DNA from: Spirochaetales bacterium
GTDB lineage: Bacteria > Spirochaetota > Spirochaetia > SZUA-6 > JAFGRV01
Direction: 5' to 3'
Assembly: GCA_016930085.1 (NCBI GenBank)
Contig: JAFGHO010000116.1
Span: 1 to 43,423 of the forward strand
Length of the DNA stretch: 43,423 nt
A program made the position numbers and the translations under genes. The notes beneath the pieces are model-generated. The model was not told where the DNA came from. It saw only the letters and a list, made by a program, of their open reading frames with translations, and did not search any database. Positions 11,381 to 21,712 of this stretch are shown here, piece by piece. How positions within the stretch are numbered: the first letter of the stretch is position 1; each line of letters starts with the position of its first letter.

Positions 11381-12298
11381 TTATTTATGTTCCTTGTTAA
11401 AGGCTTCTATTTCCCTGTTCACGCGCGGTTCAAAACCAACCTTCATAAGCTTTCCGATCATATCCCTGAACTTCGATGTATCTTTCAGATCGGTCGACAA
11501 GAAATTGAGTTCCGGGGGAAGCACCTCGTCATGAACGACCTGCGCTCCGGAGGGCTTGCCGTCTCTTATGTTATGATACTGCGATAATACAATGATCCGG
11601 GTACCGATGTACAGCGCTTCTTCGAGATCATGAGTGACGAAGAAGATCGTGTTGTCCTCGCTTTCCCTTATTTTCAGCATCATGATCTGAAGGGCCTCGC
11701 GGGTTTGAACGTCGAGCGCCCCGAACGGTTCATCCATAAGGAGAATTTTCGGCTTCATGATGAGGGCCTGGGCAATGGCGACACGCTGCCGCATACCCCC
11801 GCTCAGCTGATGGGGGAATTTGTGCGCCGCTTCCGAGAGTCCCGTTTCTTCGAGGTAATATCTCGCCTTTTCGACCGATTCCCTGCGTATTTTCATGAAT
11901 TTGAAGGGTACTATGTATTTTTCCAGGAAATTGATTTTTTCGAGTTCGAGACCGTAGGTGATGTTGTCGAGTACGGTCATCCAGGGGAAAAGCGCGTAAT
12001 CCTGATAGACGATCCCCCTGTCCCTGTTCGGTCTTCCCGCCGTCTTTCCGTCGACAAGCACCTCTCCTCCGGCGGGCGGCATAAATCCTCCGATGATGTT
12101 GAGAAGGGTGGTTTTACCGCATCCGCTCGGACCGACAAGGGAAATAAACTCTTCCCTTTTCACTTTAAGATTGATATGATCGAGGACACGGTGAATTGTC
12201 CCGTCGTCGCACTCGAACTCCTGGCTGATATCCTTGAGTTCGAGTACGGTATCCGTTTGCATCGCCATGTCTTCGTTTTCTCTGTTTATACCCATCAC
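11381..12298 (-). CDS. ABC transporter ATP-binding protein, nitrate/sulfonate/taurine type
   Basis: 305 residues. It is the cytoplasmic ATPase of the importer formed with the permease and binding protein upstream. It shows Walker A GPSGCGKTT, signature LSGGMRQR, Walker B ILLMDEPFGALD and the switch His in FVTHDLEEA. It is somewhat longer than SsuB/TauB (about 255), with an extra C-terminal stretch of about 50 residues and an insertion (FLEKYIVPFKFMKIRRES) before the signature motif. AAAAGGGG precedes the ATG. It starts 8 bases after the permease stop. The substrate is not proven. Urea-carboxylase-linked, taurine-like or related organic nitrogen compounds are candidates from the binding protein. 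Confidence 0.9.
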   Translation of the reverse strand: MMGINRENEDMAMQTDTVLELKDISQEFECDDGTIHRVLDHINLKVKREEFISLVGPSGCGKTTLLNIIGGFMPPAGGEVLVDGKTAGRPNRDRGIVYQDYALFPWMTVLDNITYGLELEKINFLEKYIVPFKFMKIRRESVEKARYYLEETGLSEAAHKFPHQLSGGMRQRVAIAQALIMKPKILLMDEPFGALDVQTREALQIMMLKIRESEDNTIFFVTHDLEEALYIGTRIIVLSQYHNIRDGKPSGAQVVHDEVLPPELNFLSTDLKDTSKFRDMIGKLMKVGFEPRVNREIEAFNKEHK

Positions 12299-12306
12299 GG
12301 CCCCTT

Positions 12307-13164
12307 TTATTTTTCAAAATACCATTTGTTCGTGAGACGATTGAGCGTTTTCAGACATATATCGACGATTACCCCGATGACGACAATAACGAAGATGTAC
12401 CAGAGGATAATGTTGACGCCGAGTTGCCGTCTCACCACGTTCATATAATATCCGAGTCCCGCCGTCGAGGGGAGTGAAAATTCGGCGGCAATGAGAAAAA
12501 TCCATGCGGGGGTCATCGCAAGCCGGATGGATTCGATGATCCCCGGCATACAATACCTGAGCATTATCTTGTGAAGGACTTCGGCGGTCGATGCACCGAG
12601 GGTATACCCCTTGTCGATGAGTTTTTTCGGGATATGTTTCGCCCGCATGTACACATCGGTGACCATGACAAAGAAGGTGCCGGCGATGATAACGACGATT
12701 TTCGCCGCTTCCGGGTATCTGCCGAGCCAGACAAAGATGAGGGGAAGGAGGGCGATAGGCGGAATAAAACTGAAACTTCTTATCAGCGGCATATTAAGCC
12801 TGTCAAAAAAACCGAACGCCGCCGAATAAAGCCCGATAAATACGGAAAGAATGATAGAAATCAGCATGCCCCAGAAAAGCCGCGTCAAACTCGCGCTTAT
12901 ATCACGAACAATCCGTATATCGCCGAACGTGGGGTTTTCGGTATTTCCTGCCTGAAAGGTGTCCTTGATTCCCTCGACTATCTGTTCAAGGGTCGGCGCC
13001 ATCCTGTCCTGCGGGTTTTCTATGTGACGTACCCAGGAGGTATATGCATAGGCCCCAACGATAAGGGCGAAAAGTACAAGGCCGATTCCTGCTTTGAGGA
13101 ATAGATTATTTACACTTCCGCCGATTGAAAAAAACGAGTTTTTCTTCTTTTTTTTGTCTGCCAT
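12307..13164 (-). CDS. ABC transporter permease, SsuC/TauC type
   Basis: 285 residues, inner membrane. A basic N terminus (KKKKKN) is followed by six predicted membrane segments. The coupling-helix region LGASTAEVLHKIMLRYCMPGI matches the EAA motif that contacts the ATPase. AGGAAAGCGGG lies upstream of the ATG. It pairs with the ATPase 8 bases downstream and the binding protein 141 bases upstream. Confidence 0.9.
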   Translation of the reverse strand: MADKKKKKNSFFSIGGSVNNLFLKAGIGLVLFALIVGAYAYTSWVRHIENPQDRMAPTLEQIVEGIKDTFQAGNTENPTFGDIRIVRDISASLTRLFWGMLISIILSVFIGLYSAAFGFFDRLNMPLIRSFSFIPPIALLPLIFVWLGRYPEAAKIVVIIAGTFFVMVTDVYMRAKHIPKKLIDKGYTLGASTAEVLHKIMLRYCMPGIIESIRLAMTPAWIFLIAAEFSLPSTAGLGYYMNVVRRQLGVNIILWYIFVIVVIGVIVDICLKTLNRLTNKWYFEK

Positions 13165-13305
13165 ACCCGCTTTCCTGTTTCGTTCCGTTCAGGGGGTGAG
13201 AAAACGACATACTCCACAACGGACCGGCGATGCCGGATACGATATTCCTTGGGAAAAAACAGTGAAGATCCCGTTTTTCATGAAAAAAGCCTCAACGTCC
13301 GCTTC

Positions 13306-14361
13306 TTATTTTTTGACGAGAATACCATCCCCCCCATTGCTTATATCATTGACAACCACTGCTTCCACGGCGATACCCGAATTCGCCGGCTGGAGGGCTT
13401 CCATGATCGTCATGGAACAGCCGACGACATTCCTCGCGGTAAAACTCTCGACGGAAGCCATGTATTCCTTATATTTTTCCAGCGTGACATTTACGCCGAA
13501 ATCCCTGCACCGTTTTTCGAGAAAGCCCTTTGCTTCGATGAGCCAGAAGGGCATCCATCCCGTCCAGATCGATATCCCCACTTTGTAGGGTGTGGGATCG
13601 ATTTCAGAGGCGGGATTGTCGACGAGCCCGCCGTTTTTGATATAGTGATCGATATATGTTGAATTGAGACTGAGGTTAACGTCCGTCTGGATAAGGTCGT
13701 GGGCCTTCGAAAACGCTTTTACTTTTTCTTCCGTTTCCAGAATTGTCTGGCTGTTGAAGAAATCGGAGGCATCGAGCGGGTCGACATACAAATCGGTCCC
13801 GCGGAGCATTTTCTTGAAATCTTCAACGGAGGCTCCTGCCGCGTCCGCCATGATTTTTATCGCATCCTCTTTTGTCGAGGTATTGTTGAAGTATTCCATG
13901 GCATCGTACCAGGCATAGGTGACGGCCAGGGCGATTTCCGGTTTTTTATCGATCATGCTTTTGTCGAAAACGATGAGGTCGATGATTTCACCCGGAATGT
14001 CCTTACTCGAAAAAATAACGGTTCCCTTGCCCTGTTCTTCCGCAAGGAAAAGATTGGGATTCCAGGTTGCTACAACGTCCGCCCCGCCGGTAAGGAAAAG
14101 CTGTCCCGCTTCATCTCCGGGGGTATTCACGATCGTGACATCGTTTTCCTTCATCCCGTTCAATTCCAGGGCACGAAGTACGAGGTAATGCGATACTGAG
14201 TATTGTTCGCATTTGATCTCTTTCCCCTTGAGTTGCCGTACGGGATTATCGGAGGCATCCCCCGTTGCGGATGTACCTGAGGACTGTTTTCCGCAGGAAG
14301 CCGCCGTAAAAACAAGACAGCACGCCATCACTGTGGCCGCAATCCAGACTACTTTTTTCAT
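13306..14361 (-). CDS. Substrate-binding lipoprotein, circularly permuted NMT1/urea-carboxylase-region type
   Basis: 351 residues. The start at 14361 is fixed by AAAGGAG seven bases upstream; an ATG at 14391 lacks such a site. A lipoprotein signal ends in FTAASC with the lipidated Cys23, so the mature protein is anchored outside the cytoplasm and feeds the permease. Residues 44-250 read as the usual middle and C-terminal part of this family (LKGKEIKCEQYSVSHYL, then ADVVATWNPNL and IPGEIIDLIVFD). Residues 259-351 (KVGISIWTGWMPF, then KEYMASVESF and VVVNDISNGGDGILVKK) read as the family's normal N-terminal lobe, now at the end. The two pieces therefore appear in swapped order. The ORF is intact and promoter-linked, which argues against a chimera. 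The substrate is uncertain. Confidence 0.88.
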   Translation of the reverse strand: MKKVVWIAATVMACCLVFTAASCGKQSSGTSATGDASDNPVRQLKGKEIKCEQYSVSHYLVLRALELNGMKENDVTIVNTPGDEAGQLFLTGGADVVATWNPNLFLAEEQGKGTVIFSSKDIPGEIIDLIVFDKSMIDKKPEIALAVTYAWYDAMEYFNNTSTKEDAIKIMADAAGASVEDFKKMLRGTDLYVDPLDASDFFNSQTILETEEKVKAFSKAHDLIQTDVNLSLNSTYIDHYIKNGGLVDNPASEIDPTPYKVGISIWTGWMPFWLIEAKGFLEKRCRDFGVNVTLEKYKEYMASVESFTARNVVGCSMTIMEALQPANSGIAVEAVVVNDISNGGDGILVKK

Positions 14362-14393
14362 TATTTTCTCCTTTAATAAAGGGTATGACACAA

Positions 14394-14422
14394 AGCTTAA
14401 CGGATGGGATTTTCCCTGTCAA
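14394..14422 (-). promoter_or_regulatory. Promoter of the transporter-hom-apgM operon
   Basis: On the minus strand a perfect TTGACA (14422-14417), a 17-base spacer and TAAGCT (14399-14394). The spacer contains the inverted repeat GGGAAAATCCC (14416-14406), a possible operator. The start codon at 14361 follows about 26 bases after the expected transcription start. Confidence 0.65.
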
Positions 14423-14460
14423 GTGAGTAGTGATAAAAACGGCTTTTACCTCTGATCTAT

Positions 14461-14520
14461 ATTCAATAAATTGAAATCTATTTCAATAAATTGAAATCTA
14501 TTTCAATAAATTGAAATCCT
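14461..14520. repeat. Three tandem 20-bp palindromic repeats
   Basis: Three copies of TTTCAATAAATTGAAATCTA (first base A in copy 1, last two bases CT in copy 3). Each holds the dyad TTTCAAT-AA-ATTGAAA. The 20-bp period is about two helical turns, so the dyads face the same side of the DNA. They lie about 40-100 bp upstream of the -35 box of the transporter operon and overlap the stop codon of the radical SAM gene, so they look like regulator-binding sites. Confidence 0.8.
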
Positions 14521-15502
14521 GGGTTCTATTGAATTCTTCGATGAGGGTAACGAGTTCCCCATCGCCTTCCCTTATGAACGAACCTCCGGGGACGGCAAGT
14601 CCCTCGTCATTGAGCCCGGCAAACAGCGAAACATGGGTCGATTCAGCAGCCAGTATGGCCGTACGCAGGCTTTCCATCAGGGGAGGGGAATATTTCCCTT
14701 CCCGAAAGGCCTTCTCGAGCGGGGTTCCCCGAGCGACAAAGGTGGGGTTGAGGTGCATATTGATCTCGAGGCCGAGATTTTTCGAGATATTGTCCAGGTA
14801 ATGAAGACCGTCGACGATATCGGTGACCGCATCGCTTTCGGACAGGCCCGGAACGGGTTTGAGCATAAAGTAGGTTTTGAGTCTGAAAGCATGGCGCGCG
14901 CACATGGCGGCGAGTTTTTCGAACACATCGAGATCCAGACCTTTGTTGAAGTGCTTGTTGCGTATGTCATCATTGAAGGCCTCGAAACCGATGGCGATCT
15001 CGAGTGTCGTTTTTGTTTCACCTTCGCCGATCGCCCTGTGTATCACTTCACATTCCGCCGGATCCACGTATTCAGCCCTGCTTTCGATGGTAAGTACCGA
15101 AATGTTACGGCAGTGGATATTCATCTGAGTGATAAAATGAAGGAGTGCGGTCGTGGAAAGGGTCGCTTCGTCGAGGACGGATCCATTGTTCGAAAGAATG
15201 ATTTTTTTCAGGCCCTGTTTCTGCCGCTCGCCCAGGAGATAATGAAAGATGAATTCGGTCTGTTTGATGATATCCCTGAAATCGACATGGTGTTGGGATA
15301 CCTTCGACGGAAGGTTGCACCCCAGGCATTTTGCCCACCTGCACGCCTGGGTGTAGAAGACGATAAAAAGCACCTGTCCCTCGACCGATGTCTGGTACCA
15401 CCAGTCTGCGGGAAGTCTCGGATTGTGATCTTCCCTGAATCCGTATGTTTTATGGGACTCTTCCGTCCGCTTCACGATGAGTTCGGATAGTCTGTCATCC
15501 AT
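14498..15502 (-). CDS. Radical SAM protein with CX4CX2C cluster motif
   Basis: 334 residues. The ATG at 15502 is preferred because it gives the natural N terminus; a GTG at 15541 would overlap telA. The iron-sulfur motif is CRWAKCLGC, with four residues between the first two cysteines rather than the usual three. It is followed by a TIM-barrel pattern with ILSNNGSVLDE, VLTIESRAEYV and EIAIGFEAFNDDIRNKHFNKG, which resembles the Elp3/archaeosine-associated (TIGR01210-like) radical SAM proteins. This suggests tRNA or other RNA modification, but that is not proven. It follows telA directly and may share its transcript. The last codons and the stop lie in the tandem palindromic repeat. Confidence 0.75.
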   Translation of the reverse strand: MDDRLSELIVKRTEESHKTYGFREDHNPRLPADWWYQTSVEGQVLFIVFYTQACRWAKCLGCNLPSKVSQHHVDFRDIIKQTEFIFHYLLGERQKQGLKKIILSNNGSVLDEATLSTTALLHFITQMNIHCRNISVLTIESRAEYVDPAECEVIHRAIGEGETKTTLEIAIGFEAFNDDIRNKHFNKGLDLDVFEKLAAMCARHAFRLKTYFMLKPVPGLSESDAVTDIVDGLHYLDNISKNLGLEINMHLNPTFVARGTPLEKAFREGKYSPPLMESLRTAILAAESTHVSLFAGLNDEGLAVPGGSFIREGDGELVTLIEEFNRTQDFNLLK

Positions 15503-15524
15503 AGGCGTGATTCGGTATCCGTAC

Positions 15525-16724
15525 TCAATCCGAGTCCACACTCAGTCTGAGTGCCGGATTCGATATATTCCCCTTTTCCAGTTTTTTGATCTGCTCTTCC
15601 CCTTTCAAAATGAGGTCGTCGAACTCGACGATTGTCTGTGCCATTTTGGGAAGCGCGTCTCTGCGGTACCTGGAAATCTCTTCCATGGCGGCGGAAATAT
15701 CCGTAAAGGCGGATTTTAACGCTTCGAACTGCAGCATGCTTTCCGAAGCCTGTTTCTGGATTTCGGTCCCTTGCATCCTGAGGCGCTGCGCGGTTTGCGC
15801 AATGAGGTTGGAGGTGGTGAGGTTGACCGCGTTGATCTTGTCGAGAACGATACGCTGGTTGTTCAGGGCCAGGGCCACGGTAACGGCGACCTGAAGTGCA
15901 TTCACGGTAACATTCACCGCCCTGTCGACGCCGCGGATCAGCTCTTTGTTGTTGCGACGTATCAATTCGATTGCAAGAACGCCCTGCTGGTTCACGGCGA
16001 GCTGCTGCTGAAGGTCCATTATCCGCTGCCGCAGGGGAAAAAGGAGTTCGTCGCTGATAAACCGGCACCGGGGGTCGTCCGGCTGTATCTCACGTTCGAG
16101 TTTGTACCGGAGTTTTGCGTCGATAAGCTCTCCCAGTTTTATGGCCTTGCCGAGTCTTTGGGTAATGTCTCTCATGCTTGTCTGGTCCTCCGCGAGCATC
16201 ATATTGTCCCGCGTAAGCCGTTCTTTTCCGTTTTTGAGGGAGTTGATAATCGCATTGATGATCGTCTGCGATTTTTCGTATTTGGAAAAATACCGTTTCA
16301 ACTGGCTCCCGATAAAGGGGATCTTTCCGGCCGCACGCGAAAACCACCCCGGCTTCCCGATGTCGATCTTGCCCGGGTCCAGGTCTTCGACCCGTAATTT
16401 GAGATCAATGAGGGCATTGGCCACCTCCCCGCCGTCTTCACTTCTCCTCGAAAGCTCCCTGATCGGCTGCTGAAGCATCTGGCTTTTCGCCGCGGCATCC
16501 TTCTGTACGGCCGTTCCGATCACTTCGACCGCCAGTTTCCCGTTTTCCCGTTCTTCGGCTTTTTCCATCGAAATGTCGATAAGTTTGTCGACAAAATCGT
16601 CGGCCTCCTTTTCGAGCAGCTTCACCGCATTATCTTCGAGCTTGACCAGTGGGCCGCCTTCGAACCCCATTTCCTTTTTCAGGGTTGCGGTATCAGGCAG
16701 GGTTGCCAGTTTCACATCGGCCAT
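15525..16724 (-). CDS. telA: Toxic anion resistance protein, TelA family
   Basis: 399 residues, largely helical with long coiled-coil stretches. It matches the TelA/KlaA family, named for tellurite resistance though its biochemical role is unknown. In Bacillus subtilis the homologue YaaN lies beside xpaC, the same pairing as here (gap 10 bases). There is no signal peptide, so it is cytoplasmic or peripheral to the membrane. GGAGG lies shortly before the ATG. It is the fifth gene of the SBP-OmpA/VWA operon. Confidence 0.88.
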   Translation of the reverse strand: MADVKLATLPDTATLKKEMGFEGGPLVKLEDNAVKLLEKEADDFVDKLIDISMEKAEERENGKLAVEVIGTAVQKDAAAKSQMLQQPIRELSRRSEDGGEVANALIDLKLRVEDLDPGKIDIGKPGWFSRAAGKIPFIGSQLKRYFSKYEKSQTIINAIINSLKNGKERLTRDNMMLAEDQTSMRDITQRLGKAIKLGELIDAKLRYKLEREIQPDDPRCRFISDELLFPLRQRIMDLQQQLAVNQQGVLAIELIRRNNKELIRGVDRAVNVTVNALQVAVTVALALNNQRIVLDKINAVNLTTSNLIAQTAQRLRMQGTEIQKQASESMLQFEALKSAFTDISAAMEEISRYRRDALPKMAQTIVEFDDLILKGEEQIKKLEKGNISNPALRLSVDSD

Positions 16725-16734
16725 ATGTTCCTCC

Positions 16735-17580
16735 TTATTTCATGGAATATTTTTTCGTGCGATTGATGAGATCCTCGAGATCCTTTCTCGCACTTTCCAT
16801 ATCGATCGATGCGTGGCCTGTTTTCGTCTTCATCCTCGATATGACGGACATGGAAAGATCGATCTGCGTCATCGCTTCTTCATTAATGGTCAGTAGTTCA
16901 TTGATATGTTCACTCTGATCTTTTTTGAGATCCTTTCTTATCGTGAGGGTTTCGATTTCCCGCATATCCGCTTCTTCCGGCTTCTCGAGGCCGGCAAGGT
17001 AGGCGAGCCGTTCCTCGATATACGCATCGTCGATGTTGCTGATCGTCTCGAGCGAGTTCATGATATCTTCGAGGTTATCGAGGACGGAAAGATAGAGTTG
17101 TTCGGTCGTTCCGAAAAAACGGGCGTAGGAAAGTTCGGAAACATCGAATTTCTCCGAAAGTATCCGTTTGAAATTATCGAATTTCGCCCGTATTTTTTCA
17201 TACTGCTTTACCGCCTGGTCGGAAAAAACCTTGAGGCTTTTCGATGTACCGAACTTGGATAATTCCCGTTTCAACCGCGAAAGTACCATCTGCTTCTGCC
17301 TGTCGATGAGTTTATTGAGGTGGGAAAGGTAATTGGCTTCCATGGTGTTCCGGCGTAAGGTAAAATTGACCGCGGTGCTTCCCGCACCGACACCCAGCGC
17401 GCAGAGTGAGGCGATGAGAAGGGGTGTGCCGGGAAAAAGCAGGAGGGACGCCGTCAGTCCGACGGCGCCGAGTGCGAGACTGTAGGTGGAGAGCGGATGC
17501 TGGATGATCCTTTCGGTGACCGCTTTTTTGATCGATTCCCGGGAAAAGTCGATCTTCCTTATATTCTGCTTTTTCCCCAT
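16735..17580 (-). CDS. XpaC-like membrane protein (5-bromo-4-chloroindolyl phosphate hydrolysis family)
   Basis: 281 residues. Two adjacent membrane segments at about 35-75 (SLALGAVGLTASLLLFPGTP, then IASLCALGVGAG) form a hairpin. The remaining 200 residues are a cytoplasmic helical domain with predicted coiled coils. The family was named for an indirect effect on phosphatase substrate hydrolysis and has no known activity. Its constant partner is TelA, the next gene. It begins 3 bases after the SBP-OmpA gene, which implies translational coupling. Confidence 0.8.
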   Translation of the reverse strand: MGKKQNIRKIDFSRESIKKAVTERIIQHPLSTYSLALGAVGLTASLLLFPGTPLLIASLCALGVGAGSTAVNFTLRRNTMEANYLSHLNKLIDRQKQMVLSRLKRELSKFGTSKSLKVFSDQAVKQYEKIRAKFDNFKRILSEKFDVSELSYARFFGTTEQLYLSVLDNLEDIMNSLETISNIDDAYIEERLAYLAGLEKPEEADMREIETLTIRKDLKKDQSEHINELLTINEEAMTQIDLSMSVISRMKTKTGHASIDMESARKDLEDLINRTKKYSMK

Positions 17581-17583
17581 GTA

Positions 17584-19143
17584 TCAGCCTCCCTGAAGCC
17601 GTGCGGAAACGAGATATATTTCGACCCTTTTGAGCCTGTCGCTGTATGCCCTGGCGGACTCCCCGCCCGACCGGGGTAAAGGTTCCGATCCGCCCACGCC
17701 GACCGAACGTATACGGTCGGGATCCACCGAATAATAACGGACGATATACGCCTTTACCGCATCGGCACGTTCGCGTGAGAGCTTGAGATTCGCGGCCCGG
17801 TCGCCCCGCTGATCCGTGTGTCCTTTGACCATGATCCGGAAATTGGGGTAATGTTTTATGTTTTCGACGATAATGTCAAGCTGTATCTCGCCGAGTTCGT
17901 CGAGTTCGGCGGTGCTGCTTCTAAATGTAATCGGTCGCAGCTTGAGGGTGCCAACGACATCCAATTTCTCCCATTGCTCGTCGGAGAGGGGGGTAAAATC
18001 CCTTGTGAAGGAATCTTCGCTGCCGTCATCAGATATATCGGAAGGCCCCCCCGCAATATAGATGTTTTCGATAAACGAGGAATTGATGATCGTATAGGGA
18101 TCCTCCCCCGGAAGGGGATTCGCGGTAAAATCCTCGTTTTCGAGCAGGATTTTTATGGTCGAATCGATGGCGGCCGACAATTCCTCCCTGTATGCCGTAT
18201 TTGTCGAATCGATGCCGAACCACCTGGTGTTTTCATTGAGACCCACCCATCGGACGCCTTTAAGCATGGATGCGGACTCCTCCGCTTTCATTTTCGTATG
18301 GCGGACAATATCTTCTTCGAGCAGGTTCGCCTCTGAGGTGTAGATACCGAGCGTCTCGAAATATTTTTCGACGACAAGCCGGCACATATCCGGGTTGTCC
18401 CTGCTGTATGTTCTGTTTACAAGGAGTATGTCGATAATGAGTTTTTCCGTATCGTCTGTACCGAGGAGTTTGACGATGTCCGGATTGGCGAGGCTCGAGG
18501 TGACATGGGGTTCCCAGAGAACGGCAATATCCGCGTTTTTTTTCATCAGTTCCCGGTATGCCTGTTCCGCGCCGACCGTTTCGATACGCCAGTCGCCTTT
18601 TTTCTCCAGAAGCCTCGGAATGCCGAAGTGAACCCCGATAGTTTTAAGGAGGTGCTCGCTCGGGGAGCCCGGGGTAAACGCAATCCGGTAACCTGAGGCC
18701 GTTTTCAGTTTGTCGAGGTTTTCCATTTTCGACTTCCAGGCGACCATCGCGTCCCCGCCTTTCGATTCATCGATGACAAGGATTATCGTAGCGGGAAAAT
18801 CGAAACTGACGCCATTGATAAGATACGAATCGATCGTACAAACGGCGAAATCGATTTCGCCCTTTTTGAGACGTTCCATACGGAGGGGGTAATTCGCTTC
18901 ATCGTCGATAATGACCGCTTTGTATCCGGCTTCGCGCATGAGTTTCTTGAAAACCTGTGATTGAAAAGGGAAATATCCGATCCAGCTGTCAAGGGCGATC
19001 GAAACCTCGCCTTTGAGTTTTTTCGCGTCGCTGGTGCCGTATGCGAACTCGTCCTGCAAAGACGGCAAAACGAGTCTGAAAATGACGATTGCCGTAATAC
19101 CGACAACAACCACAATGATGGCGATGATCGTATGTGTTTTCAT
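17584..19143 (-). CDS. Membrane-anchored substrate-binding protein fused to OmpA domain (1)
   Basis: 519 residues. An N-terminal membrane anchor (about 5-25) is followed by a type-2 periplasmic binding domain of the NMT1/phosphate-binding kind (about 45-370; GEVSIALDSWIGYFPF, KGEIDFAVCTIDS, VIDESKGGDAMVA, ADIAVLWEPH) in normal lobe order. The C-terminal OmpA-like domain (about 400-515) has GHTDQRGD and NLKLSRERADAV with peptidoglycan-contact residues D444 and R459. It should therefore hold a ligand-sensing domain between the inner membrane and the peptidoglycan. No permease gene is in the operon, so sensing is more likely than transport. RefSeq-style annotation of such fusions is 'phosphate ABC transporter substrate-binding/OmpA family'. 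Confidence 0.85.
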   Translation of the reverse strand: MKTHTIIAIIVVVVGITAIVIFRLVLPSLQDEFAYGTSDAKKLKGEVSIALDSWIGYFPFQSQVFKKLMREAGYKAVIIDDEANYPLRMERLKKGEIDFAVCTIDSYLINGVSFDFPATIILVIDESKGGDAMVAWKSKMENLDKLKTASGYRIAFTPGSPSEHLLKTIGVHFGIPRLLEKKGDWRIETVGAEQAYRELMKKNADIAVLWEPHVTSSLANPDIVKLLGTDDTEKLIIDILLVNRTYSRDNPDMCRLVVEKYFETLGIYTSEANLLEEDIVRHTKMKAEESASMLKGVRWVGLNENTRWFGIDSTNTAYREELSAAIDSTIKILLENEDFTANPLPGEDPYTIINSSFIENIYIAGGPSDISDDGSEDSFTRDFTPLSDEQWEKLDVVGTLKLRPITFRSSTAELDELGEIQLDIIVENIKHYPNFRIMVKGHTDQRGDRAANLKLSRERADAVKAYIVRYYSVDPDRIRSVGVGGSEPLPRSGGESARAYSDRLKRVEIYLVSARLQGG

Positions 19144-19235
19144 TCCCTCTCCTCCTTCGCTCTTATGGCTATTTTATCCGGTATTTCTTGGAGAAAATCT
19201 GTTTCAAGTCCCGAAAAAAATCTGTTGCGACCTCG

Positions 19236-20003
19236 TCACTCGAACTTCATCACACTGAAACTCTCGAGTTCCGCAAGGACTTCCTCAAGCCCTTTGCTCA
19301 ACTCCGTAAAATTATCGGCCTGTTTGTAATAAATTCGGCCCGGCTGATTCAGTGAATGGTGTGGTCCGATCTGAAAACCGATGGTGTGGATGACGACCGG
19401 ACTCGTTCCCAGGATCGTGTTTACGATTCTGTCGGGTTCTTCGCCGTCACTTGCCTCTCCGTCGGTGACGACGACGATATTGTATTCGCCGTAGCCGAAT
19501 TGCCGGGCGCCCTGCCTGGTTATTTTATCGAATGCGATTTCAAGCGCACTTCTGAGCGGCGTGTACCCCGACGCCCTTACCTGGCGGATCTCTTCGAGTA
19601 TCCGCTGTCTGGAATCCCCGAGTCCCGAACGTTCGGAAAGCCCCGTCTCGTCGAACACCAGAAGTCCGATATTCGCATTGTCCGGCACCTGTGCGATAAA
19701 TCTGATCAAGGCTTCTTTCGCCACATCCATCTTCTCGCCGTTCATGCTGCCGGAACCGTCAAGGATAAGGTAATAGTTTTTCATGAGAAAATCGTCTTCC
19801 GGTTCGACCCCGGCGGTATCGATACTGCCGGGCCAACGGCTTGTTTCATCCGCTGCCGCACTATAAGGATCTCCGTAGGTACTCCCGGTACCGGTTTGCG
19901 GAGATGATGCGTCTTCGATAAAGACCGAATAGATAAAAAAACCGATCACTCCGATCACCGCCAGTGTGATGACGATCGATCCAATGTTACTGTTTCTTGC
20001 CAT
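19236..20003 (-). CDS. Membrane-anchored von Willebrand factor A domain protein
   Basis: 255 residues. One membrane segment (about 8-28), then a linker rich in Ser, Thr and Gly (30-65), then a VWA domain. The metal-dependent adhesion site is complete: D82-G-S84-G-S86, T148 and D181 (VTDGEASDG). It probably binds a protein partner outside the membrane in a Mg2+-dependent way. GAGGAG lies just before the ATG. It sits between the two SBP-OmpA genes (gaps 26 and 92 bases), and the shared topology suggests one envelope complex. Confidence 0.88.
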   Translation of the reverse strand: MARNSNIGSIVITLAVIGVIGFFIYSVFIEDASSPQTGTGSTYGDPYSAAADETSRWPGSIDTAGVEPEDDFLMKNYYLILDGSGSMNGEKMDVAKEALIRFIAQVPDNANIGLLVFDETGLSERSGLGDSRQRILEEIRQVRASGYTPLRSALEIAFDKITRQGARQFGYGEYNIVVVTDGEASDGEEPDRIVNTILGTSPVVIHTIGFQIGPHHSLNQPGRIYYKQADNFTELSKGLEEVLAELESFSVMKFE

Positions 20004-20029
20004 CGTATTCTCCTCTCTCTGAGGCCCGT

Positions 20030-21712
20030 TCAGTCAAGCGGAATGAAAACATCCGACTCTGCTTCCACCTGAATAATCCTGAACTCAACCCTCATGTTTT
20101 CAAGCCACTCCTTTTCCGTTTTCGGTACTTCATATACCGGCCTGGTAATACCGAGTCCGATAGTGGCGAATTGATTCGGATCGAGGGTGATGCCCCTTTT
20201 TCTTGAATAGTCGATGATCTCGTCCCGCACCGCATTTGCCCTGCTGTAACTGAGATTTTTTGCCGCCTGCATGATCCGGCTAAGCACCACTTCCTGTTCG
20301 CCCTGTTTTTTTTTCCGCAAATATTCCATGGGATCGGAATGTCCTTCGACCGTGATAACGGCGCCGCCATAAGTGGATGAGAGATCGATCACCCGTTCGA
20401 ATTCATCCCGGTACAGGTCGACGGAAAACGAGTTCTGATTCGGTTTGAAGTAAATTTTGAATGAGAAAAGTGAAGAATCATCAAGGGTGTCCTGCATCTG
20501 TTTTTTTGCGATCACTGTCGATACTTCGTCCGAATCAAAACGGGATGCTTCCTTGAGATCGGCGTATTTCAATCCCTTCTTGAAATCGGTATAATTCCAG
20601 TCACCCTGAGCGATGGATATTGTTTTGGTCAAAAGTTTTAATGTAATGAAAGATTTTTGAATCTCCCTGTTGAGTTTGTCGAATCCCCTCGGGTAATTGG
20701 CGTCCTTGAAATATTTGACGTTTCCATTGAAACCCGAATGTTCGGCGTCAAAGTACATTCCCGAAACTTCGCTTGCCGCTCCGGAACTGTCCAAAAGAAT
20801 GGTTGCAGCGTTCGTCATGAGGTTTTTATAGGCGGTGCTTCTCGTATCTTTGAAAATATCCTTCACTTCTTCTTCGGCGATGAACATCGCATGGACGAAT
20901 TTACTCACTTCGTCCCCGTGCGCTTTGAAGTAATCCTTTCGCACGGCATAAACGTCACTGATAATCCTGTTTGCCGTTTTCGTCGAAAGAAGGATACGGG
21001 CGCCCTTGACGGAATCTTCGGCCCCCGTCCCCACCGTTCCGTCCGATGTAAGGGCAAGCGCGTCGGGGATAATGACGAATGCGGCATCGACCTTCTTCGT
21101 GTAGAGTTTCGCCATCGGCGTGTCGCCTTCGGGGCCCACGAGGTCTTTTGTCCAGAGAATCGAAACATTATTAATGGAAAGATGCGCATCGTCCAGCAGT
21201 TTCATCAGATAATCGATATGGGGACCGTAACTTTGGATCGCTATTGTTTTCCCCTTCAGGTCCCCGATATTCCGGATACCCTGTTTAACGACAAGGGCGT
21301 CGCCGCCCGCGGACCATGAGTGCTGGTAGACGACGACCATCCGTGTATTGTCCGACTTTTCGGTGATGTCGGCGGCCATGTTGATCATACCCATCGTTCC
21401 CCGCAGATAGACGATGTCCCCTTTCATGTACATTTCAACCTGCTTCTGGAAATTATCTTCCCTGAAAAGCTCGATTTTCAATCCCTTGTCCTGAAAAGGA
21501 GAGCCGGAAGCCGTTCTGGTCTTGCCCCCGTTCGCGTGTATCGTGACGATGTCCGCCCCCCATGTAATAAGCGGAAGTCTTGTCCATGAACCGGATTTAT
21601 AATTGCCGGGCGAAACCCTGAGTCTGCTGCTGAAGGGCTCGAGGGATTGGGAATGAAGCAGGGCCGGCCCGATTGCCATCAGTGCCATCATTATCAAAAG
21701 ATTTTTTTTCAT
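20030..21712 (-). CDS. Exported substrate-binding protein fused to OmpA domain (2)
   Basis: 560 residues and the first gene of the operon. The signal peptide ends near HSQ-SL (about 22). A type-2 periplasmic binding domain follows (about 45-340; YMKGDIVYLRGTMGMINM, SAGGDALVV, DLKGKTIAIQSYGPHIDYLM, KVDAAFVIIPDA), then about 80 residues of linker, then a C-terminal OmpA-like domain (about 425-550; GHSDP and NLSYSRANAVRDE). Unlike its paralogue at 17584 it has a cleavable signal and a longer C-terminal domain with an insertion (RKKKQGEQEVVL). It may therefore be free in the periplasm and bound to peptidoglycan. GGGGG precedes the ATG. Confidence 0.85.
   Translation of the reverse strand: MKKNLLIMMALMAIGPALLHSQSLEPFSSRLRVSPGNYKSGSWTRLPLITWGADIVTIHANGGKTRTASGSPFQDKGLKIELFREDNFQKQVEMYMKGDIVYLRGTMGMINMAADITEKSDNTRMVVVYQHSWSAGGDALVVKQGIRNIGDLKGKTIAIQSYGPHIDYLMKLLDDAHLSINNVSILWTKDLVGPEGDTPMAKLYTKKVDAAFVIIPDALALTSDGTVGTGAEDSVKGARILLSTKTANRIISDVYAVRKDYFKAHGDEVSKFVHAMFIAEEEVKDIFKDTRSTAYKNLMTNAATILLDSSGAASEVSGMYFDAEHSGFNGNVKYFKDANYPRGFDKLNREIQKSFITLKLLTKTISIAQGDWNYTDFKKGLKYADLKEASRFDSDEVSTVIAKKQMQDTLDDSSLFSFKIYFKPNQNSFSVDLYRDEFERVIDLSSTYGGAVITVEGHSDPMEYLRKKKQGEQEVVLSRIMQAAKNLSYSRANAVRDEIIDYSRKRGITLDPNQFATIGLGITRPVYEVPKTEKEWLENMRVEFRIIQVEAESDVFIPLD

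Follow-up and report, generated by a model that had tools for sequence, protein, structure and literature searches.

The gene cpSBP, on the minus strand of the window (the whole stretch of 43,423 nucleotides analysed here), raises the question whether a substrate-binding lipoprotein carries the parts of its family fold in exchanged order. According to the original prediction, a signal peptide is followed by the middle and C-terminal part of the family (residues 44-250) and only then by its N-terminal lobe (residues 259-351). We consider it highly probable that cpSBP represents a genuine, functional and natural circular permutation of an NMT1-like/TIGR03427 binding protein of an ABC importer. 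For this assessment, the order of the parts, the common ancestry of the two halves, the occurrence in a single clade, purifying selection, the operon slot and the predicted fold were computed. The features of the locus are collected in Table 1.

Part order and integrity of the gene

When the unmodified protein was searched with NCBIfam profiles, TIGR03427 matched in two stretches of reversed order (223.7 bits), with residues ~27-226 corresponding to profile positions 87-287 and residues 259-351 to positions 4-96. The separated halves behaved in the same way: residues 259-351 alone matched positions 4-96 (82.0 bits, E 4e-23), and residues 1-258 alone matched positions 86-287 (147.8 bits, E 4e-43). 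Upon rotation of the protein in silico, positions 4-287 were covered by a single stretch (242.2 bits). The permuted architecture was thus borne out, and the predicted block coordinates are correct within a few residues. Chance matches of the halves are ruled out by their E-values. For each half, TIGR03427 is the best family, and the terminal block is lobe 1 rather than part of some other domain. The two pieces complement each other and hardly overlap, as is expected for a permutation rather than for a second partial copy. Homology is nearly full-length with N- and C-terminal parts interchanged, which is how circular permutation is generally defined. For the profile beyond position 287, the old C-terminal tail, no counterpart is recognisable in cpSBP.

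The curated cut-off of TIGR03427 (333.9 bits) is missed by the protein both as it stands and after rotation. Gathering thresholds are passed for the Pfam families NMT1_2 (PF13379, 44.7 vs 24.7 bits) and NMT1 (PF09084, 41.2 vs 20.5 bits), where the N-terminal part of cpSBP alone is matched, by the C-terminal portion of each model. Permuted genes are under-scored in family scans because the profiles presuppose the usual order.

In the translation, the signal peptide and Cys23 are followed by LKGKEIKCEQYSVSHYL, and the C-terminal end runs from KVGISIWTGW to SNGGDGILVKK. KVGISxWxGW had been taken for the usual block of the family, but the closest relatives with normal order read [FY]KLAWSHYTGWEPW...GDFSNGNDGI instead; on this comparison, KVGISxWxGW is the wording of the block peculiar to the permuted clade. 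The intact ORF, the lipobox and the ribosome binding site were found as described. A signal peptide with a lipobox cysteine, invariant in the three orthologues, identifies cpSBP as a lipoprotein at the sequence level. The promoter of its own that had been assigned to the gene was not recovered, as no sigma-70-like site passed a scan of the upstream region on the minus strand.

The interval that separates cpSBP from the radical SAM gene contains 3.2 copies of a largely palindromic 20-bp unit, ATCTATTTCAATAAATTGAA (14455-14518), which overlap the 3' end of the radical SAM gene.

Table 1. Features of the cpSBP locus (window positions) and the basis of their assignment.
Feature	Position	Strand	Basis
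ABC ATPase, cognate	11381-12298	-	PF00005; 75-76% identical and adjacent in sister loci
ABC permease (BPD_transp_1), cognate	12307-13164	-	PF00528; 73-74% identical and adjacent in two sister loci
cpSBP (351 aa), NMT1-like substrate-binding lipoprotein, circularly permuted	13306-14361	-	intact ORF; TIGR03427 in two reversed stretches; AF2 pLDDT 94.7
cpSBP residues 259-351, N-terminal block of the family (beginning of lobe 1 plus hinge strand), now last	13309-13587	-	TIGR03427 4-96, E 4e-23; 86-88% identity in two sister genomes
cpSBP residues 40-258, middle and C-terminal portion of the family (lobe 2, second crossover, remainder of lobe 1), now first	13588-14244	-	TIGR03427 86-287
cpSBP residues 1-23, signal peptide with lipobox (AASC; Cys23 as lipidation site)	14293-14361	-	sequence; Cys23 invariant in 3 permuted proteins
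cpSBP ribosome binding site AGGAG, 6 nt 5' of ATG	14368-14372	-	sequence
Radical SAM protein (RaSEA-like), cassette neighbour	14498-15541	-	TIGR01210 under cut-off
TelA toxic-anion resistance protein, cassette member	15525-16724	-	PF05816 E 3.5e-71; synteny
Cassette member of unknown function	16735-17580	-	no significant family above cut-off; synteny
Cassette protein, fusion of substrate-binding and OmpA domains	17584-19143	-	profile matches; synteny
Cassette protein with von Willebrand A domain	19236-20003	-	PF13519; synteny
NMT1-type binding domain, weak OmpA-like C terminus, cassette member	20030-21712	-	profile matches; synteny

Relatives, operon slot and alternative explanations

A search for the same order in related genomes was successful for G002 and G004, which belong to another genus of the same taxonomic family and code for proteins that match cpSBP colinearly over the full length with 75% identity. 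Both are metagenome-assembled genomes (Spirochaetales bacterium, isolates Zod_Metabat.749 and.855), and their permuted genes are located on the independent contigs JAFGQK010000305.1 and JAFGRV010000452.1. In the two remaining genera of the family that were examined (G001, G003), no cpSBP-type gene was found. Two further genomes from the same taxonomic order as the source (G007, G017) carry both pieces in normal order within one ORF. We determined the order systematically with separate profiles for the two halves, covering 393 genomes of the phylum and 80 loci from 84,980 species genomes. Among distinct ORFs with both halves, 3 are permuted and 89, from many phyla, have the normal order; in the phylum sample, all two-piece matches outside the permuted clade are in normal order. 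In a combined tree, the members of the permuted trio cluster together, on a branch as long as 1.7 changes per column, beside 79 TIGR03427-like proteins of normal order. This distribution fits one permutation event in the ancestor of the two genera.

No second copy of lobe 1 was detected in the window, at the two sister loci or anywhere else in the three genomes with a permuted gene (G000, G002, G004), so that each gene and each genome has a single copy and the moved part has left no residual duplicate; relatives with an additional N-terminal lobe-1 copy, which would have spoken against a permutation, were not encountered either. A TIGR03427 protein of normal order is likewise absent from these three genomes. 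A candidate for an N-terminal remnant of the displaced block (SSGTSATGD, compared with SNGNDGIVV) was dropped, since the linker sequence varies between the three orthologues. The DPT residues that precede the relocated block could be an echo of the old C terminus of the family or of its old mature N terminus.

In the window, cpSBP is part of a cassette with the order binding protein (20030-21712), von Willebrand A protein, fusion of binding protein and OmpA, protein of unknown function, TelA, radical SAM protein, cpSBP, permease and ATPase. About 35 of the 80 loci show the same order, whole or in part, and have a binding protein of normal order in the position of cpSBP, among them loci from Desulfobacterales (L063), Oligoflexia (L060), Nitrospinota (L131) and Kordiimonas (L124). 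Thus, cpSBP fills the slot of the normal protein. The slot is also occupied by a normal-order protein in G007 and G017 from the Spirochaetales, where the cassette is inverted. In the literature searched, we found no published description of this multi-phylum cassette (11381-21712). Its two further binding domains and TelA hint at an uptake or stress system that spans the envelope.

Two side observations concern cassette genes. The radical SAM protein resembles archaeosine RaSEA (TIGR01210, 118.7 bits vs a cut-off of 212) although it is encoded in a bacterium; its gene adjoins that for TelA and occurs also in the cassettes of G002, G004 and Desulfobacterales L063. A contig labelled archaeal (L072, Euryarchaeota archaeon SM23-78) carries genes for a binding protein, permease and ATPase together with von Willebrand A and binding protein-OmpA genes, and the OmpA fusion on such a contig suggests misbinning or transfer.

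Instead of being permuted from one ancestor, cpSBP might be a truncated binding protein to which part of the lobe-1 domain of another such protein has been fused. The permuted clade is indeed diverged, and within it the relocated N block is better conserved than the rest (86-88% vs 79% identity), but both halves find their best match in the same family and in complementary, non-overlapping ranges (4-96 and about 97-287). Also, separate trees for the N and the C half attach the permuted trio to the same branch, and both halves are similarly distant from their normal-order relatives (38% and 35% identity), which makes a fusion very improbable. That the gene is a product of misassembly or misbinning, or a pseudogene deprived of its real N-terminal lobe, has an even smaller, practically negligible probability. 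Such an origin could be invoked because the two sister sequences derive from metagenome-assembled genomes and no isolate is known, but proteins with 75% identity and identical junctions are encoded on three separate contigs, and each of the three genes has retained its ORF, signal peptide and ribosome binding site. Among the permuted proteins, dN is 0.05-0.16 while dS is saturated or above 2.6, and this holds for both blocks. These values indicate that the permuted genes are under strong purifying selection and, with only one copy of lobe 1, dispose of artefact and pseudogene about as thoroughly as sequence data allow.

It is somewhat less far-fetched, but still unlikely, that the permuted protein folds without acting as an importer receptor and serves as a ligand sensor for the TelA/von Willebrand A/OmpA cassette. 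The window cassette has two further binding domains, at least one of them fused to OmpA, and about half of the most conserved columns of the N block are changed: of the columns conserved in at least 90% of the 79 relatives, the permuted trio keeps 22 of 41 in the N part and 41 of 59 in the C part. Yet permease and ATPase directly follow the permuted gene in all three permuted loci, as expected for an importer with cognate components, while the cassette in G002 and G004 is found on a contig other than that of the permuted gene. We retain an importer binding protein with permuted order as the preferred reading.

Predicted structure and proposed mechanism

With the three permuted sequences alone, AlphaFold2 reached a pLDDT of only 37.7. 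When the halves of the relatives were added as separate, unchanged rows, residues 24-351 of cpSBP were modelled with two lobes (pLDDT 94.7, pTM 0.91); in that alignment, the C-half tails of the relatives are misaligned over parts of 277-292 and 332-349. TauA could be aligned to model residues 14-214 (VIA-align, Z 13.7, 3.1 A, 197 residues). Both TauA and SsuA superpose via their C-terminal two thirds and only on the N-terminal two thirds of the model, which is a signature of the reversed order. For the structural check proposed originally, the confident bilobed model and this partial superposition, obtained with an aligner working in sequence order, point in the predicted direction. OpuAC structures are the best Foldseek matches and are aligned end to end; VIA-align placed residues 20-328 of the model on 10-259 of OpuAC (Z 10.8, 5.4 A). 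VIA-align and Foldseek both align in sequence order, and neither alone can prove a permuted superposition.

For type II binding proteins, export, lipidation, closing of two lobes on a ligand and docking on a permease are established. From the family we infer that cpSBP would be exported by Sec and lipidated at Cys23, that its chain would fold as a two-lobed Venus flytrap with a cleft shut by the ligand, and that the closed protein would dock on the product of the permease gene immediately downstream, with the ATPase from the next gene supplying the power. The permutation may have arisen by duplication, fusion and trimming. The ancestral N-terminal block, which comprises the beginning of lobe 1 and ends with the hinge strand SNGGDGILVK, was relocated to the C terminus, where a short linker (about residues 246-258) joins it to the old C-terminal region. 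The signal peptide, the lipobox and a flexible tether of roughly 17 residues lead directly to the first strand of lobe 2. With the break positioned between the hinge strand and the first strand of lobe 2, the tether has likely been moved from lobe 1 to lobe 2, each lobe is likely contiguous in sequence, and the former first of the two hinge crossovers is likely now a free C-terminal strand. As a whole, the proposal that a hinge permutation in one spirochaete lineage has put the lipid tether on lobe 2, has made the lobes contiguous and has left only one covalent crossover is put forward tentatively. Given the long branch and a score that stays below the family cut-off even after rotation (242 vs 333.9 bits), cpSBP may bind another ligand than TIGR03427 proteins, for which urea is the putative one.

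Comparison with known systems

Relationship to TIGR03427 (ABC_peri_uca), NMT1_2 and NMT1 is evident from the alignment of both halves, from the permease and ATPase that follow, and from the retained blocks TGW.P, SNG.DG, SVSHYL, TWNP and IPGEIID. The differences are the reversed halves, a score under the TIGR03427 cut-off in either order and the unrecognisable C-terminal tail. TauA and SsuA (E. coli, Xanthomonas) are sequence relatives of cpSBP with solved structures and have the normal order. Natural permutation had been claimed to be undescribed in this family. This stands for NMT1/TIGR03427 in the literature searched, of which coverage was incomplete, but permuted binding proteins as such are already known, namely TpMglB-2 (PMC4990184) and the glycine-betaine binding proteins (PMC2395249). 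The permutation of cpSBP, apparently new for its family, is less novel for that reason.

It nevertheless provides a clean natural case, with one permuted clade, about 90 relatives of known order, the same operon slot and no duplicate. The effect of lobe connectivity and tether position on closing and docking of binding proteins can be tested with it, and for biosensor design it supplies a naturally used break point within the hinge of such a type II protein.

OpuAC from B. subtilis and other glycine-betaine binding proteins form a type II family with circular permutation (PMC2395249). OpuAC shares the type II binding fold with cpSBP and is colinear with its model, but no significant sequence relation was seen (11-13% identity). 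Permutation is family-wide in the glycine-betaine proteins, whereas that of cpSBP is confined to one clade and can be compared with 89 normal-order sequences.

Another parallel is TpMglB-2 (Tp0684) from Treponema pallidum, a circularly permuted glucose-binding lipoprotein of 'Type Ic' that has retained ligand binding and for which its authors suggest adaptation to membrane tethering (PMC4990184). Like cpSBP, it is a tethered ABC-importer lipoprotein from a spirochaete and has the first strands of the N-lobe at the C terminus; its fold is retained, as is predicted for cpSBP. In contrast to cpSBP, it has a type I sugar-binding fold, belongs to a different family and needed a fourth lobe crossover for its permutation, which is common to many treponemes and Gram-positives (PMC4990184) and originated independently. 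As 'Type Ic' denotes a Type I/cluster B fold related to MglB, cpSBP, which by sequence is NMT1-like type II, falls outside this class. If the proposed hinge permutation is real, the two proteins together would point to repeated selection for permuted tethered receptors in spirochaetes and, for cpSBP, to co-adaptation of its diverged permease.
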